Part shown: piece by piece, positions 38,363 through 44,415 of the stretch
How the letters are laid out: each line of letters opens with the position of its first letter
How positions within the stretch are numbered: the stretch's first letter is position 1
Source of the DNA: Bacteroidales bacterium
GTDB lineage: Bacteria > Bacteroidota > Bacteroidia > Bacteroidales > M50B96
Assembly (NCBI GenBank): GCA_018401015.1
Contig: JAGYLP010000016.1
Span: 1 to 44,551, forward strand
Direction of reading: 5' to 3'
Length of the DNA: 44,551 nucleotides
Notes under the pieces: model-generated
The model's database searches: none
What the model saw: only the letters and a program-made list of their open reading frames with translations
What the model was told of the DNA's origin: nothing
Program-made: the position numbers and the translations under genes

Positions 38363-41300
38363 ATGAATCCAAGCAATCGTTTACTAAAGAATATTTTCCG
38401 CATGAAACATCTCCTACTTCTGTCGTTCATCATTCTTTTCACCGCTTCCTTCCAGTTCAAACTGAAAGCACAAGATACCCTCCGAATCTTCTCGCATCGA
38501 AACGAAGTAATCGTTACCGACCCATCGGAAGGTATTAAACACCACCCTCATTGGACGGTCTTCCCGGATGAAAACACTCCTATTCGTCAAATTTTAATGT
38601 ATGCCCACTTTGCTTGTCCCGATACCATGCGATGCGCCGACTGGGATTACCTGGACCGAATCATGCTCGTCAAACAATCCGATAACAAACAAGATACCCT
38701 CAACCTGGAACTTGGAAAACTCATCACTCCTTATGGAGGATTCTTTAAAAGTGACTGGGCCTTCACCTGGGAAATGGACCTGACCGACTTCCGATTGTAC
38801 TTGCACGACAGTGTCCTGATCGATTACATCCACTCCGGTTACGAACCCAATCACGATCGAGGATGGAAACTCAACCTGGAGTTTGCTTTCATAACCGGAA
38901 CACCCGCAGCAAAACCAGTAAAAATCCACACTATTTACAACGGACGTTACGAATATGGCAACCCCGATAATCCAATCGATCAACTATTAGCCCCAATCTC
39001 ATTTCAGACCAGCCCAACCACCACACATGCGCGCCTGCGTATTCTTCAAACCGGTCATGGTATGGATTTACCCGACAACTGCGCCGAGTTTTGCAGCAAA
39101 TACAGGGAAATATGGTATAACGGAGAGTTAATCTCCACACGCAATTTGTGGAAAAAGTGCGGCGATAACCCCGTTTTCCCTCAAGCCGGAACCTGGATCT
39201 TCGATCGTGCGAATTGGTGTCCCGGAGATTTGCTACCCGGTGAGTTTTTCACCCTACCTTTAAAAGAAGCATCAAATCATACCGTCCAGTTCCGCATGGA
39301 ACCTTATGAGGCGACCGAAATTAATCAGGGAGCACAAATGATTTCAGCCTATGTAATCGAATACGAGCAACCCATTCATTCGTTGGATGCACATCTTAGC
39401 GATATTCACCGACCATCCGATAAAGATATCCATTCCCGCATCAATCCAGCTCTGAGCAATGCCACTATCAGCATCATTAACCGTGGCTCCGAGCCAATTA
39501 CTGCACTTACCATCCGATATGGCACAATCGGCTTTGAAACGAACGCCTACCAGTGGCAAGGACTTATCCAACCTTTTGACAAAGACACGATTGTCTTGCC
39601 GGGAATAATTGATACCAACCCTTCCAATAATCGTTTTTTTGCCGAAGTAAGCAGGGTGAATGGTCAAAAAGACCCGTATCCGCTCGACAATCGTAAGGAA
39701 ATAGCCTTCACCCCGGCGCCCGTTCATCAAGCTTCACTAATCTTCAAATTAAGAACGAACCGGGAGCCCGAACAAAACCAATGGACCCTCACCCGTCTTG
39801 AAACACAGGAAGTACTGCATCGGAGCGATTCAGTGCTCGAAGCTGAAAAGACCTATTTGGACACCTTTCAGCTTCAAACGGGTGCATATCAATTGGAATT
39901 CACCGACGCTGGAGGCGATGGACTAGAGTTCTGGTTCAATGCAGCAGGCGGCAGAGGTGAAGCTATTCTGCTCAACGCAGAGGGTTCACTCCTACATGCT
40001 TTTGAATCCGACTGCGGATCGGGTTGGGCTTACGCTTTCACCATCAGCGAAAATGCTCCGCCAATCGATTCATCCCTCTTGGCAACCAGCATGTATCCCG
40101 GCAGAACAAGCGATTCCGTTAAATGGAGGTATTTAGGGAATGCACCCGGCAACTTGCTCGTTCAGCTTAGCGATGAATCGGGCAACATCCTCGAAGAACA
40201 CCGCTACCCGAATGTTTCAGAAAAAAACATCAGCTTCTCCCTCCTACCCTATGCATACGGTCGCTTCCGCTTTCAGGTTTTCCGAAACGATTCCCTCATA
40301 CTTCGCAAACGAATTCGTTTCGTTCCTCCAGATTCTTCATCGGAACCTGCTTATGTACCACCAAGCGATCCGGCAGTAAAAGCCAAATTGGAAACCTGGC
40401 AGGATTGGAAATTCGGAGCCATCATCCATTGGGGTACTTATTCCGCATGGGGAATTGTGGAAAGCTGGAGTCTAGCGCCCGAAGACGAACCCTGGTGCGA
40501 ACGCAAAGGCCCATACGCCGAGGATTACAACACCTATGTGCAAGAATATGAAAAACTTCCCGAAAGCTTCTATCCGGAAAAATTCAATCCGGAAAACTGG
40601 GCAAAAGCATGTCGGGAGGCTGGAATGAAATACCTGATTTTTACCACCAAGCATCACGATGGATTTAGCATGTTCGATTCCAAACAAACCGATTATACCA
40701 TTTCGAATCCACGCAGTAAATTCTCCAAACACCCCCGAAACAACATCAGCCTCGAGGTATTTAATGCTTTTCGAGAAGAAGGCTTGGCCGTTGGAGCCTA
40801 TTTCTCGAAAGCCGATTGGCATCATAACGATTACTGGTGGCCCTACTTTCCGCCAACAGACCGGAACGTAAATTACGATCCCAAAAAATATCCTGAGAAA
40901 TGGGAACGATTCAAGGACTTTACCCACCGACAAATTGACGAATTGATGAGCGATTACGGTCCTTTGGACATTTTATGGCTCGATGGCGGCTGGGTTCGAC
41001 CCGAAGGCAGCTTAACCGAAGAAACTCGTCCGTGGCTAGGGAAGAATCAGTGGATTCAGGACATCGACATGGAGCGAATTGCGGCTAACGCACGTTCAAA
41101 ACAGGAAGGCATTCTACTTGTTGATCGCACCGTGCATGGTCCGTTCGAGAATTATCGTACTCCGGAGCAACAGATTCCCGAGGAAATTCCTCCCTATCCC
41201 TGGGAAAGCTGCATTACCCTGGGTTCAGGATGGTACTCCTCCGGGCCCGACGATCCGGTTAAGTCGCTCCACTGGGCCGTTCATACCTTGGTCCAAATTG

Positions 41301-41713
41301 TGGCTAAAGGAGGGAATTTACTGCTCGGCATTGGACCCGACAAAACAGGAGCTCTTCAACCCAACGTATTGAAGCGTTTAGAAGAAATTGGAAGCTGGGT
41401 TTCGCAACATGAAGAAGCCATTTATGCCACCAGGCCACTCGCTCCATATCAGGTTGAATCCTTCGCCCTTACTCAGAGTAAGGACGAACAACATGCTTAC
41501 CTGTTTTACTTGATGGAAGAGGATCAAACCCTTCCGAAAAAGCTTTATATCCCTGAAGGGGTCGACCTGTCGTTTCATGAAACCCAGTGCTTGCTTACGA
41601 AAGAAATCATTCCATCCGCAGAGGATAAAAACGGGAAATACCTGGCCATTAGCAAGCAGTTGCAAAAAAAATCCAAAGGTGTTCCGGCTATTGTTTTCAA
41701 GGTAAAACGATAG
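38363..41713 (+). CDS. Fusion of PNGase F-like N-glycan amidase and GH29 alpha-L-fucosidase
   Basis: A 1116-residue exported protein. After a signal peptide (ends FKLKAQ, about residue 37), residues 45-335 resemble peptide-N-glycosidase F: CADWDYLDRI (91-100), LITPYGG, and GHGMDLPDNCAEFC (231-244), where E242 would match the essential Glu206 of PNGase F and D95 its Asp60. Residues 360-560 are beta-rich linker domains. Residues 575-654 look like a degenerate T9SS sorting domain. Residues 670-1025 are GH29: DWKFGAIIHWGTYS, the TTKHHDGFSMFDS motif (762-773) and LDILWLDGGW with the nucleophile D874. A short C-terminal beta region follows. The combination would remove N-glycans from glycoproteins and fucose from the released glycan. 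No T9SS domain is at the C-terminus. An ATG at 38402 gives a tighter signal peptide. Confidence 0.85.
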   Translation: MNPSNRLLKNIFRMKHLLLLSFIILFTASFQFKLKAQDTLRIFSHRNEVIVTDPSEGIKHHPHWTVFPDENTPIRQILMYAHFACPDTMRCADWDYLDRIMLVKQSDNKQDTLNLELGKLITPYGGFFKSDWAFTWEMDLTDFRLYLHDSVLIDYIHSGYEPNHDRGWKLNLEFAFITGTPAAKPVKIHTIYNGRYEYGNPDNPIDQLLAPISFQTSPTTTHARLRILQTGHGMDLPDNCAEFCSKYREIWYNGELISTRNLWKKCGDNPVFPQAGTWIFDRANWCPGDLLPGEFFTLPLKEASNHTVQFRMEPYEATEINQGAQMISAYVIEYEQPIHSLDAHLSDIHRPSDKDIHSRINPALSNATISIINRGSEPITALTIRYGTIGFETNAYQWQGLIQPFDKDTIVLPGIIDTNPSNNRFFAEVSRVNGQKDPYPLDNRKEIAFTPAPVHQASLIFKLRTNREPEQNQWTLTRLETQEVLHRSDSVLEAEKTYLDTFQLQTGAYQLEFTDAGGDGLEFWFNAAGGRGEAILLNAEGSLLHAFESDCGSGWAYAFTISENAPPIDSSLLATSMYPGRTSDSVKWRYLGNAPGNLLVQLSDESGNILEEHRYPNVSEKNISFSLLPYAYGRFRFQVFRNDSLILRKRIRFVPPDSSSEPAYVPPSDPAVKAKLETWQDWKFGAIIHWGTYSAWGIVESWSLAPEDEPWCERKGPYAEDYNTYVQEYEKLPESFYPEKFNPENWAKACREAGMKYLIFTTKHHDGFSMFDSKQTDYTISNPRSKFSKHPRNNISLEVFNAFREEGLAVGAYFSKADWHHNDYWWPYFPPTDRNVNYDPKKYPEKWERFKDFTHRQIDELMSDYGPLDILWLDGGWVRPEGSLTEETRPWLGKNQWIQDIDMERIAANARSKQEGILLVDRTVHGPFENYRTPEQQIPEEIPPYPWESCITLGSGWYSSGPDDPVKSLHWAVHTLVQIVAKGGNLLLGIGPDKTGALQPNVLKRLEEIGSWVSQHEEAIYATRPLAPYQVESFALTQSKDEQHAYLFYLMEEDQTLPKKLYIPEGVDLSFHETQCLLTKEIIPSAEDKNGKYLAISKQLQKKSKGVPAIVFKVKR

Positions 41714-41781
41714 GCTTAACGACGTACTTAGCGGCAGATTATCAAGGCAGATCGACCTCCATTTCGCGTAAGGAAATCTTG

Positions 41782-41850
41782 TGCACCCGGTAAAATAGGC
41801 TATCGATAAAAGAAACAAGAAAGGCTCGAAGAATTTCTTAGCCGGGTGCA
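41782..41850. repeat. Inverted repeat upstream of the tRNA-linked array
   Basis: TGCACCCGG (41782-41790) is the exact reverse complement of CCGGGTGCA (41842-41850), separated by 51 bases. It lies between the fusion gene's stop codon and the -7 box at 41870. It could be a terminator stem, a regulator site or an end of an inserted segment. There is no T-tail. Confidence 0.5.
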
Positions 41851-41869
41851 ATAAAATTGCCAGAATAAT

Positions 41870-41877
41870 TATCTTTG
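41870..41877 (+). promoter_or_regulatory. Candidate -7 box driving the repeat array and tRNA-Leu
   Basis: TATCTTTG matches the Bacteroidota -7 consensus exactly. The first repeat unit starts nine bases downstream, at 41887, about where transcription should begin. It is the only convincing promoter box before the tRNA, 487 bp upstream of its mature 5' end. Confidence 0.55.
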
Positions 41878-41886
41878 CCGCCCGAA

Positions 41887-42363
41887 GCCCAGATGGCGAA
41901 CCCGACGTAGGAGAGCTCGCCATCCTTGACGAAGGAGGGCAATGAAATGGTGTACGCCCAGATGGCGAACCCGACGAAGGAGAGCTCGCCATCCTTGACG
42001 GAGGAAGGCAATGAAATGGTGAACGCCCAGATGGCGAACCCGACGTAGGAGAGCTCGCCATCCTTGACGAAGGAGGGCAATGAAATGGTGAACGCCCAGA
42101 TGGCGAACCCGACAGAGAGCAGGCCATCCTTGACGAAGGAGGGCAATGAAATGGTGAACGCCCAGATGGCGAACCCGACGAAGGAGAGCTCGCCATCCTT
42201 GACGAAGGAGGGCAATGAATTGGTGAACGCCCAGATGGCGAACCCGACGAAGGAGAGCTCGCCATCCTTGACGAAGGAGGGCAATGAATGGTACGCCCAG
42301 ATGGCGAACCCGACGTAGGAGAGCTCGCCATCCTTGACGAAGGAGGGCAATGAAATGGTGAAC
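41887..42363 (+). repeat. Seven tandem repeats, each starting with the 5' end of the adjacent tRNA-Leu
   Basis: Seven units start at 41887, 41956, 42025, 42094, 42160, 42229 and 42295, with lengths 69, 69, 69, 66, 69, 66 and 69 bp. Every unit begins with GCCCAGATGGCGAA, identical to the first 14 nt of the tRNA-Leu that begins at 42364 in register as the eighth copy. The rest of each unit is a 52-55 bp cassette. Inside a unit GATGGCGA can pair with TCGCCATC (17-nt loop), and TCCTT with AAGGA around GACG. Unit 4 has lost the first pairing (AGGCCATC). Units differ by a few substitutions (GTAGG or GAAGG) and by 3-bp deletions. This is a direct repeat, with no unique spacers. Confidence 0.97.
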
Positions 42364-42450
42364 GCCCAGATGGCGAAATTGGTAGACGCGCTGGTTTCAG
42401 GGACCAGTGACCTTACGGTTGTGCAGGTTCGAGTCCTGTTCTGGGCACCA
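42364..42450 (+). tRNA. tRNA-Leu (anticodon CAG), CCA encoded
   Basis: A class II tRNA of 87 nt. The acceptor stem GCCCAGA pairs with TCTGGGC, followed by discriminator A and an encoded CCA. The D-arm has a GCG/CGC stem with AAATTGGTAGA. The anticodon stem CTGGT/ACCAG closes the loop TTCAGGG, giving anticodon CAG, which reads CUG. A long variable arm (GACC-TTAC-GGTT) marks it as leucine type. The T-arm is GCAGG-TTCGAGT-CCTGT. The gene is the last, in-register member of the upstream tandem array, which repeats its first 14 nt. Its nearest promoter box is 487 bp upstream, before the array. Confidence 0.97.
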
Positions 42451-42660
42451 AAAATAGTATTGAGTTTTGAGAACTGAGCACGAGGAAGCAAGCTCTTTTC
42501 CGACCAGTTTCTTCCCTTAATACTCAATACTCACACTCAATACTCTTTCTCCGTTCCTCCTTGATGCCTTAATTGATAACGACACCTTCTCAATTCATAC
42601 TTGACAGAGATTTTTCCCGATTTCACCTTATTTTAGATACCGCTTAAAACCTATTAATAA

Positions 42661-44415
42661 ATGGCGGAAACTACGATTAAGGCACGACTAGGGAAAATAG
42701 TGCACCGGGGTGCCTTTCGGATTGCTATTTATTTCGGACATCAACCTCAATTACAATCCTGGTTGAAAAGTAAAGGATGCCAATGGAGTCGAACACACCG
42801 CTGTTGGTACATGGATTATTCGAAGGAATCCTTTTTAATATTAAAATCCTATCCTGCAGAATGGATTTTACCCAATGGGAGTAAAATGGAAACTCAGGTG
42901 GCCGGCGAAGAAAGCCGTGAAATTCCACCCATAGCGAACAGCGAACAGCGGCACCCGCACACGATTAGTTCGGACAAGGCCGATCATAAGCCTCTCAACA
43001 AGGCTAAAATACCTTCCGGATTACAAATCCTCGAATCGGTGGGGAAATATTGGGTTTTTACAATGGATTACCGGCAAACGGTGGTACGTAAACTGCTGGC
43101 TATAAAAGGAGTGTATTGGAATAAAAGCTATCGGGCCTATATGGTCATTCAGCACCCCAAAGTGAGAGAAGCAGTGCACCGGGTGCTGGGTAAAACGGAT
43201 TTTTTGCCGGAATACACAAAACCAGCTACCTCTCCAAAAACTACCAACTTAGTCATTCGAATAGAAGTCCATCGAGCCGATTCGAGAATGATGCAGGTGC
43301 ATTTGCCCGAGTCCATCGTTTTCTATGATAAAATAAAACGCTTCAGCTACAGCAGGTATAGCAAAGCCGACGACTGCTATTTGCTTCCCGCTGCACCCAT
43401 GGTATTGGAATCTATTCGCATGCTTTTCGAACCCGAAAAAGTTCAGATCCAGCTTAATCTTCCCAAGGGCTATTTGCAGGCGCGCAATCAACCCAATCGG
43501 AAGCAGTTGGACCTTAGCCGGAGCAGAAGCCGCATGCTCGATCAAGTGCCGCCCGATAAACGCGAAGTTCTGGAGACCTTTATTGATTTTCTGTTAGCCA
43601 GGAATTTTAGCTCTTCCACTGTAAAGAATTACAGCAATGCTATGATTCGCTTTATGCGCGACACCAATCGGGAACCGGATAAAATGCAGGAGAAAGAAAT
43701 TATTCGCTACCTGGCAGGTATTATGAGCCGAGGGCAGCAAAGTGCCAGCGGTAACATGATGGTGAATGCGTTGAAATGCTATTACCGCGACGTATTAAAG
43801 AGAACCGGCTGGCAACTTCATCTGCCCCGTCCGAAGAAGGAGAAGAAATTACCGGCAGTTTTGAGCAAGGAAGAGTGTGTGCGGATTTTCAAGAGCGTGC
43901 GCAACATCAAGCATCAGCTCATCTTACTACTCACTTATGGTTCCGGATTGCGGGTGAGTGAAACGTGCAATTTACGCTGGGGTGATATCGATTTCGATAC
44001 CTACCAAATCCATTTAAAAGCAGCGAAAGGGAAAAAAGACCGAATAGTAGTCTTGCCACTCATGATTTTGCAAAGCTTACAACATTATCGCGGTTTGCAG
44101 CAACGAATTCAGGCCGACGATTTTGTTTTCGAGGGTCAGTATATTGGCGAGCCCTACAGTTCGAGTAGCGTACAGCAGGTGATGCGCCGGGCTGTAGCGG
44201 CAGCAGGAATCAGCAAGCATGCCACCGTTCACACTCTGAGGCACAGTTTTGCCACCCATTTGTTAGAGAGCGGCACCGACATACGTTACATCCAAGCCTT
44301 ACTCGGCCACAGCAGCATCAAAACCACCACCATTTACACCCATTTACGTTCCGACAAGCTAACACGAATCCACAGCCCCCTCGATAGTTTGAAGCTGGAT
44401 GACCAGGCTTCTTAA
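42661..44415 (+). CDS. Tyrosine recombinase (XerC/D-like) with three N-terminal repeat-like modules
   Basis: A 584-residue site-specific recombinase, nearly twice the length of XerD. The catalytic residues are all present: R431 (GSGLRVSE), K456 (AAKGKKDR), H524 and R527 (VHTLRHSF), H550 (LLGH) and the nucleophile Y559 (TTTIYTHL). The core-binding SAM-like domain is at about 295-385. The first about 270 residues hold three imperfect modules (about 20-65, 128-177 and 198-256) with a shared pattern of LxxIKGxxWxxxxRxY, which resembles HARP-like DNA-annealing modules; this resemblance is an inference. It starts 211 bp after tRNA-Leu, a common location for integrases. No excisionase, phage or conjugation genes are seen before the window ends. 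Role: chromosome dimer resolution or element mobility. Confidence 0.9.
   Translation: MAETTIKARLGKIVHRGAFRIAIYFGHQPQLQSWLKSKGCQWSRTHRCWYMDYSKESFLILKSYPAEWILPNGSKMETQVAGEESREIPPIANSEQRHPHTISSDKADHKPLNKAKIPSGLQILESVGKYWVFTMDYRQTVVRKLLAIKGVYWNKSYRAYMVIQHPKVREAVHRVLGKTDFLPEYTKPATSPKTTNLVIRIEVHRADSRMMQVHLPESIVFYDKIKRFSYSRYSKADDCYLLPAAPMVLESIRMLFEPEKVQIQLNLPKGYLQARNQPNRKQLDLSRSRSRMLDQVPPDKREVLETFIDFLLARNFSSSTVKNYSNAMIRFMRDTNREPDKMQEKEIIRYLAGIMSRGQQSASGNMMVNALKCYYRDVLKRTGWQLHLPRPKKEKKLPAVLSKEECVRIFKSVRNIKHQLILLLTYGSGLRVSETCNLRWGDIDFDTYQIHLKAAKGKKDRIVVLPLMILQSLQHYRGLQQRIQADDFVFEGQYIGEPYSSSSVQQVMRRAVAAAGISKHATVHTLRHSFATHLLESGTDIRYIQALLGHSSIKTTTIYTHLRSDKLTRIHSPLDSLKLDDQAS

Follow-up and report, generated by a model that had tools for sequence, protein, structure and literature searches.

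Tandem copies of a tRNA 5' end ahead of tRNA-Leu(CAG) in a Bacteroidales genome as probable relics of partial tRNA duplication

Introduction

How does a tRNA gene come to stand behind seven copies of its own 5' end, and do these copies have a function? The question is raised by a tRNA-Leu(CAG) locus in the window, by which we mean the whole stretch of DNA analysed here (44551 bases), one complete contig (C8) of an 84-contig, 2.88-Mb draft genome (G000) from the order Bacteroidales. In the part of PMC9897764 drawn upon here, tRNA gene fragments are described as arising via integrative elements or CRISPR acquisition, and the portion of PMC7661048 that concerns us describes the birth of bacterial tRNA genes by tandem duplication. 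Among the titles and abstract openings of the open-access literature, no account of hairpin-bearing tandem copies of a tRNA 5' end was evident.

Results

ARAGORN places tRNA-Leu(CAG) at 42364-42450 of the forward strand and finds no other tRNA in the window; the gene, also recognised by Rfam, is intact and encodes its CCA. Directly ahead of it, on the same strand, lies an array of seven units of 66-69 bp (41887-42363), which TRF reports as a repeat of period 69 at 41887-42377, with 7.2 copies, 93% matches and a score of 877. All seven units open with GCCCAGATGGCGAA, the exact nucleotides 1-14 of the tRNA-Leu, and the tRNA follows in register; the 52-55 bp past this copy are slightly variable. 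Unit 1 (41887-41955, 69 bp) has a 15-nt linker, unit 2 (41956-42024, 69 bp) carries the GACGGAGGAAGGC variant, and unit 3 (42025-42093, 69 bp) has the same sequence as unit 7 (42295-42363, 69 bp), which abuts the tRNA. Unit 4 (42094-42159) is shortened to 66 bp and is predicted to fold more weakly, unit 5 (42160-42228) is again of 69 bp, and unit 6 (42229-42294) reaches only 66 bp because its linker is shortened. TCGCCATC is present in six of the seven units, its place in unit 4 being taken by AGGCCATC as the 3' arm. Thus ARAGORN, TRF and unit-by-unit reading confirm what an earlier note on this DNA had described, i.e. an array of seven units bearing the tRNA 5' end, with TCGCCATC in every unit but the fourth. 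A hand count gives no change within the 14-nt copy and roughly 10 elsewhere in the units, numbers too small to speak for or against purifying selection on the copy. As the repeat is long, its units are non-identical and arrays of like design occur in other genomes, a chance origin can be dismissed, and the array is a real, uncommon structure. Rfam covariance models, run over 41500-43000 at E up to 1, matched RF00005 (tRNA) only; a known structured RNA such as a riboswitch, T-box or ribozyme was set aside for want of any covariance-model match apart from tRNA.

The flanks of the array deserve a brief description. The stretch that follows the tRNA (42451-42530), with agctcttttccgaccagtttcttcc and its neighbours, resembles what directly follows two tRNA-Arg genes (L007, L017) in the source genome and may be a further repeat associated with tRNA 3' flanks. 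Upstream, 38363-41713 of the forward strand encodes a 1116-aa protein, in which a match to the PNGase F C-terminal domain is joined to an alpha-L-fucosidase domain.

The Bacteroidota -7 promoter consensus is TAnnTTTG in the section of PMC7366714 used here, and between 41601 and 42363 the window holds a single box of this type, TATCTTTG at 41870-41877 on the forward strand, which ends 9 nt ahead of unit 1 and 486 nt ahead of the tRNA-Leu. No such box stands directly before 42364. Among the 29 tRNA loci read in the same genome, 21 have a TAnnTTTG box within 60 nt upstream, at a median gap of 16. One same-genus genome, about 60% complete (G001), carries a tRNA-Leu(CAG) that is 97% identical to that of the window and has no array (L119). 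There, a TATTTTTG box is followed by 9 nt (CCGCCCAAT) and the tRNA; in the window, the TATCTTTG box is followed by 9 nt (CCGCCCGAA) and unit 1, and further upstream the two sequences diverge. Since the box-to-tRNA gap in the array-free genome is the same 9 nt, the simplest account is that the array was inserted ahead of the tRNA and downstream of a promoter that was kept, and this single same-genus genome offers the ancestral state without duplication. The position proposed for the array, downstream of the promoter and upstream of the tRNA, is borne out by the sole box 9 nt before unit 1 and by the empty site. A pre-tRNA leader of about 480 nt, the other part of the proposal, is judged probable on the same two grounds, and the array is probably transcribed together with the tRNA from the box at 41870. 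A search with one arbitrary upstream-element pattern found nothing.

Folding predictions were made for the unit alone and for the unit joined to the tRNA. A 69-nt unit folded alone is predicted to form a three-way junction with a GCCC/GGGC stem, a TGGCGA/TCGCCA arm and a TCCTT-GACG-AAGGA hairpin (the elements also assigned to unit 1), and the 14-nt tRNA copy takes part in this predicted intra-unit fold, which is closed by GCCC/GGGC. Eight pairs between GATGGCGA and TCGCCATC are permitted by the unit sequence. Pairing of the 14 nt was equalled by none of 100 shuffles in units 1, 3 and 5, by one in unit 6, by two in unit 7, by seven in unit 2 and by 18 in unit 4. For the joined molecule, the predicted probability of the native acceptor stem is 0.98 for the tRNA alone and 0.80 behind the 9-nt window leader alone; at equilibrium it falls to 0.15 behind one unit, 0.006 behind two units and 0.005 behind all seven. 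When the part of unit 7 outside the copy was shuffled, the mean dropped to 0.001, compared with the natural 0.150, and 0 of 200 shuffles reached the natural value (1 of 120 in a repeat of the test); permuting TCGCCATC alone gave a mean of 0.028, with 6 of 100 reaching the natural value. These probabilities and shuffles together indicate that, for a unit of its kind, that of the window invades poorly, although the predicted equilibrium still favours invasion of the tRNA. The earlier note had suggested that the complement, present in every unit except unit 4, could pair with the tRNA 5' half or compete with its acceptor stem. In a unit folded alone, the complement is predicted to pair instead with the copy in its own unit; when the unit is joined to the tRNA, the copy is predicted to invade the tRNA 3' half at equilibrium (0.15 versus 0.98), so that competition of the units with tRNA folding is possible. 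Insulation of tRNA folding by the units was also assessed over 42 loci, two of them scored on one comparison each, after leaving out 28 entries (25 with copies under 12 nt, three without a complete tRNA). The median p of 0.34 and KS p of 0.028 give it weak support, and insulation as a general rule was not adopted.

The earlier note had proposed a search for the unit in relatives and at other loci. The array has no match in the 59 relatives searched, the source genome aside. Within the source genome the unit recurs only at the end of contig C9, the other genome matches having E values of 0.3 or more. Contig C9 stops 34 nt into a unit, GCCCAGATGGCGGACCCGACGAAGGAGAGCCCGC, which lies 66 nt after a TACTTTTG box. 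Compared with the window unit, A13 is replaced by G and the T opposite by C, and the arm pairing is retained. Neither tRNA-Leu(CAA) nor tRNA-Leu(TAA) was found among the tRNA matches of this genome, for which 150 of 204 candidates were scored, or by start pattern. A C9 copy without a matching tRNA in the draft fits an assembly broken by an array; we infer that one of these two genes follows the copy, and beyond the contig end we would expect more units and then a tRNA-Leu starting with GCCCAGATGGCGGA. Viral contigs yielded no exact match to the core pattern of the unit, and the plasmid and phage records among the matches listed (8 of 62 and 8 of 53, respectively) align to the tRNA part only. 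The window unit was also considered as a mobile palindromic element dispersed at unrelated loci; its only recurrence in its genome is at the C9 end, and viral contigs have no exact match to its core.

Copies of tRNA ends beside their own genes were surveyed at 277 distinct tRNA loci in nine genomes, by masking the tRNAs and recording exact same-strand self-matches of at least 12 nt within 350 nt. The tRNA lists held at most 150 scored candidates per genome, so some tRNAs may be missing; for G024, 35 distinct loci were read of 51 matches, and the copies at L121 (G003) and on C9 were left out of the counts, as the stretch ends there. In the family to which the window belongs (G000, G002, G003), 8 of 92 tRNA loci have an upstream self-copy and 6 of 92 a downstream one, the window locus included, compared with 2 and 1 of 108 in three other members of the order (G010, G018, G024). 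Counting either side, the difference is 11/92 versus 3/108 (Fisher p 0.013); for upstream copies alone it is a modest excess (p 0.046). Two further genomes, G284 and G346, had been chosen for having hits and were excluded from this comparison. As a control, tRNAs were matched against the flanks of other isotypes, which gave 1/774 (G000), 10/1340 (G002) and 0/570 (G003) pairs upstream and 0/774, 12/1340 and 0/570 downstream. Across the nine genomes, 10 of the 14 upstream-copy loci have a copy starting at tRNA nucleotide 1; none of the 10 downstream-copy loci does so, and at seven of these the copy reaches the 3' end. That upstream copies mostly keep the 5' end and downstream copies the 3' end is expected of tandem duplications that spare one intact gene.

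The closest parallel to the window is the tRNA-Val(TAC) of G002 (L142, L263, L264), which follows 80-bp units bearing its nucleotides 1-28, with three full copies within 350 nt. The tRNA itself lies on contig C67; contig C61 holds further Val units, with a TATCTTTG box before the first of them. Allowing for overlap of the contig ends, a hand count over both contigs gives at least five units, the number needed because one C67 unit has a variant palindrome missing from C61. Like the window, this array thus combines a promoter-like box, tandem 5'-end units and an intact tRNA; it differs in its 28-nt copy, its 80-bp unit, the replacement of the anticodon arm by TCCCGATTTTACATCGGGA and its incomplete assembly. 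Within the source genome, a tRNA-Met has a self-copy of its nucleotides 1-27. Upstream copies occur at tRNA-Met (L018, L164, L168, L184, L195), tRNA-Gly (L173, two copies), tRNA-Leu (L126, L158) and tRNA-Cys (L310), and downstream copies at Lys (L010, and L148 with two copies), Asn (L152), His (L196) and Ser (L224); the terminator is also duplicated at several downstream-copy loci. Flanking leader within the unit is clear in L164, where 22 nt of leader are repeated ahead of the copy and ahead of the tRNA; the window linker shows no visible copy of its own leader. The T-loops of the downstream Lys and Ser pseudo-tRNAs of G284 (L148, L224) are filled by the related TCCCGAAGGGATGCCTTTGGCAGA and TCCCAAGGGGATGCCTTCGGCAGA. 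A separate tandem repeat of TCCCGAAAGCTATCGGGA-type units, with no tRNA in the stretch read, occurs at a contig end in G003 (C120; L255).

Beyond the order, tRNA-Leu genes with a second copy of their 5' start 54-84 nt upstream were sought in a contig collection covering 84,980 species. The scan returned 61 loci, in records titled Bacteroidota, Ignavibacteria, Calditrichota, Patescibacteria and Proteobacteria and in one Balneolaceae MAG; inside the order, the same pattern is found in 4 of 393 genomes, the source genome among them. All but two of the 61 loci (L060 and L092) were found again, and in 34 of the 59 the own copy is identical over at least 12 nt. By 12-mer match, L106 has four copies, L088 three, and L065, L099 and L110 two each. 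Three loci (L084, L094, L103) carry identical copies of 48-52 nt with no added palindrome visible. Most of the remaining copies are shorter, and in many of them a hairpin cap is present or a palindrome has taken the place of an arm. A perfect stem of at least 6 with a short loop is present in 20 of 33 own-copy units, compared with 1.9 expected, two of the 35 units having been dropped as too short, and a few of these stems are the native anticodon arm (e.g. L112); the other 25 units include 18 with such a stem, against 1.3 expected, many being the native anticodon arm. The design seen in the window, in which the copy pairs to a nearby complement, recurs in L087, L100, L117 and L126, where the helices span 6-9 pairs and include a single G-U in L100 and another in L126; units of L065 and L118 are closed by GCCCA/TGGGC, and L054, L062 and L095 have weak helices only. 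For these single units, pairing of the 14 nt is not strong against 100 shuffles, as 7 to 10 reach it in L054, L062, L065, L075 and L087, five in L095 and 41 in L100. At pair 13 the window has A-T where L087, L100, L117 and L126 have G-C, and pair 11 is C-G, or T-A in L117. Such matching pairs could reflect selection, or template switching in which inverted copies are generated afresh at each event; the matching fits both alike and decides for neither. A 67-nt tRNA-Leu 5' half with its anticodon arm intact stands directly before tRNA-Leu(CAA) in L056, L066, L085 and L098, identical in records that carry different Bacteroidota names, and L071, L076, L078 and L107 are similar. These identical halves may reflect strong conservation, transfer or mislabelled bins.

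Discussion

We propose, with a probability of about 0.6, that the array consists of stacked pseudo-tRNAs within the pre-tRNA leader, relics of partial tRNA duplication that were capped by hairpins, amplified by slippage and serve no dedicated function. A same-strand fragment identical to the adjacent tRNA end, the mark of a tandem partial duplication, is found in all seven units and in register. The process would begin with a short tandem duplication having one break inside the tRNA-Leu, so that a 5' fragment would come to lie downstream of the promoter and ahead of the intact gene. The fragment would then shed the rest of the tRNA and acquire a hairpin and a sequence complementary to its start; each unit would thereby fold on itself and interfere less with the folding of the real tRNA. 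Finally, slippage or unequal exchange would multiply the 66-69-bp unit to seven; slippage-driven expansion, one of the explanations offered in the earlier note, fits the tandem, near-identical units. The leader, probably transcribed from the 41870 box, would be cut off by RNase P and discarded. The simplest series would thus run from a fresh fragment through a decayed, capped fragment to a tandem array. Loci with no added palindrome visible (L084, L094, L103) would represent the young stage and the stem-bearing own-copy units (20 of 33) the old stage. Several observations count against the duplication reading: about 41 nt after the 14-nt copy have no evident source, matches elsewhere in the genome having E of 0.3 or more apart from the C9 end; the linker is no visible copy of the leader of the window locus; the insulation statistics over the 42 loci are weak and invasion is predicted in the window; and the family excess is modest (upstream p 0.046). 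Moreover, copies from distant phyla share hairpins of related sequence, a recurrence poorly explained by chance decay.

These recurring hairpins raise an alternative that we think unlikely, in which mobile palindromes insert in hairpin loops, chiefly those of tRNA arms, and the tandem pseudo-tRNAs are their landing sites or by-products of their movement. A palindrome TCCCGAT-N2-8-ATCGGGA occurs at 39 sites in four genomes (6 in G000, 9 in G002, 12 each in G003 and G284), of which, by manual reading, at least 16 lie inside pseudo-copies at seven tRNA loci; five of the 16, however, belong to one Val array on two possibly overlapping contigs, and, in the stretches read, most sites outside the pseudo-copies have no tRNA nearby. 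At position 676 of L258 (G284, contig C136), TCCCGATAGCTATCGGGA occupies the loop of a terminator-like hairpin, which suggests a preference for hairpin loops in general, and the CCTGCCTGCCGGCAGGCAGG type is exact in 5 of 114 loci examined, in copies from different taxa; yet the hairpins of the window belong to neither palindrome type. A distinctly doubtful extension would have palindromes homing to tRNA-gene hairpins in Bacteroidales and several phyla, with self-sealed pseudo-copies stacking into a transcribed leader that alters tRNA maturation or protects the essential gene against further insertions. We hold in similarly low regard a regulatory leader, in which the tRNA 3' half would be contested between the units and the tRNA's own 5' end, with the outcome determining the yield of mature tRNA-Leu(CAG). 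The predicted fall of the native acceptor stem from 0.98 without leader to 0.15 with one unit and 0.005 with seven speaks for it, as does the probable transcription of the array, but the array is missing from a same-genus genome, copies occur at several isotypes and downstream of tRNAs too, Rfam matches the tRNA only, and local hairpins would presumably form earlier during transcription.

The neighbourhood of the locus makes integration worth weighing, as a tyrosine recombinase of 584 aa (42661-44415, forward strand) begins 210 bp downstream of the tRNA, near the contig end; PF00589 and a SAM-like N domain lie in its second half, and its N-terminal 300 or so residues have no Pfam match at E 0.001. 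This or another integrase might have copied the tRNA 5' end on integration, leaving attachment-site remnants, and integration is a source of tRNA fragments in the section of PMC9897764 cited above. The fragments in that section, however, flank elements of about 9-23 kb and not 55-bp tandem inserts, and the unit core has no exact match in viral contigs. By tblastn at E 1e-3, the recombinase hits none of the 61 tRNA-Leu scan loci; 11 hits outside the window fall at other tRNA-region loci (24-53% identity), many loci consisting of short flanks only. We therefore regard attachment-site remnants as very improbable, and the idea that a small element integrated again and again at the tRNA 5' end, another suggestion of the earlier note, loses ground for want of recombinase linkage at the scan loci and of an exact viral core match and because downstream 3'-end copies exist. 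An integrative-element remnant bracketing cargo or an integrase does not apply either, with 52-55 bp between copies and the recombinase outside the array. An assembly artefact is hardly probable at all: tandem repeats in an 84-contig draft can be mis-assembled and the unit count may be off, but the units differ from one another and other genomes carry the same design.

If relic duplication is the right reading, the array would exemplify a recurring, little-noticed route by which pseudo-tRNAs gather in tRNA leaders, and such loci would be natural test cases of how the correct tRNA is made when seven copies of its 5' end precede it in one transcript. Such units may also break assemblies at tRNA genes, as contigs C9 of G000 and C61 and C67 of G002 end inside units. 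Were the palindromes to home to tRNA genes after all, each event would leave a tRNA-shaped pseudo-copy flanking an intact tRNA on its outer side, and the seven here would be one stack of these.

Known systems share single features with the window. At the E. coli tyrT locus (rtT RNA), tandem repeats carry the tRNA 3' end and lie downstream of the tRNA. The window likewise has tandem repeats bearing part of the adjacent tRNA gene, but these repeat the 5' end, upstream and inside the leader, in units that are each self-complementary, so that the array does not qualify as a repeat of the rtT/tyrT type. Small palindromic elements, such as the Rickettsia palindromic elements, are inserted in genes. 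They are, like the hairpins of the window, short hairpins inside genes; in the window, however, the hairpins sit in duplicate pieces of a tRNA and leave the functional tRNA intact, as far as its sequence tells. The fragments treated in the relevant part of PMC9897764 are, as here, partial duplicates of a tRNA gene, but a mobile element of about 9-23 kb separates them from it, or a CRISPR spacer contains them, whereas those of the window are 52-55 bp apart, in tandem and hairpin-bearing. Finally, the tRNA copies in the portion of PMC7661048 considered here also come from tandem duplication; there, duplications of 45-290 kb add whole tRNA genes, whereas in the window duplications of tens of bases would yield fragments.
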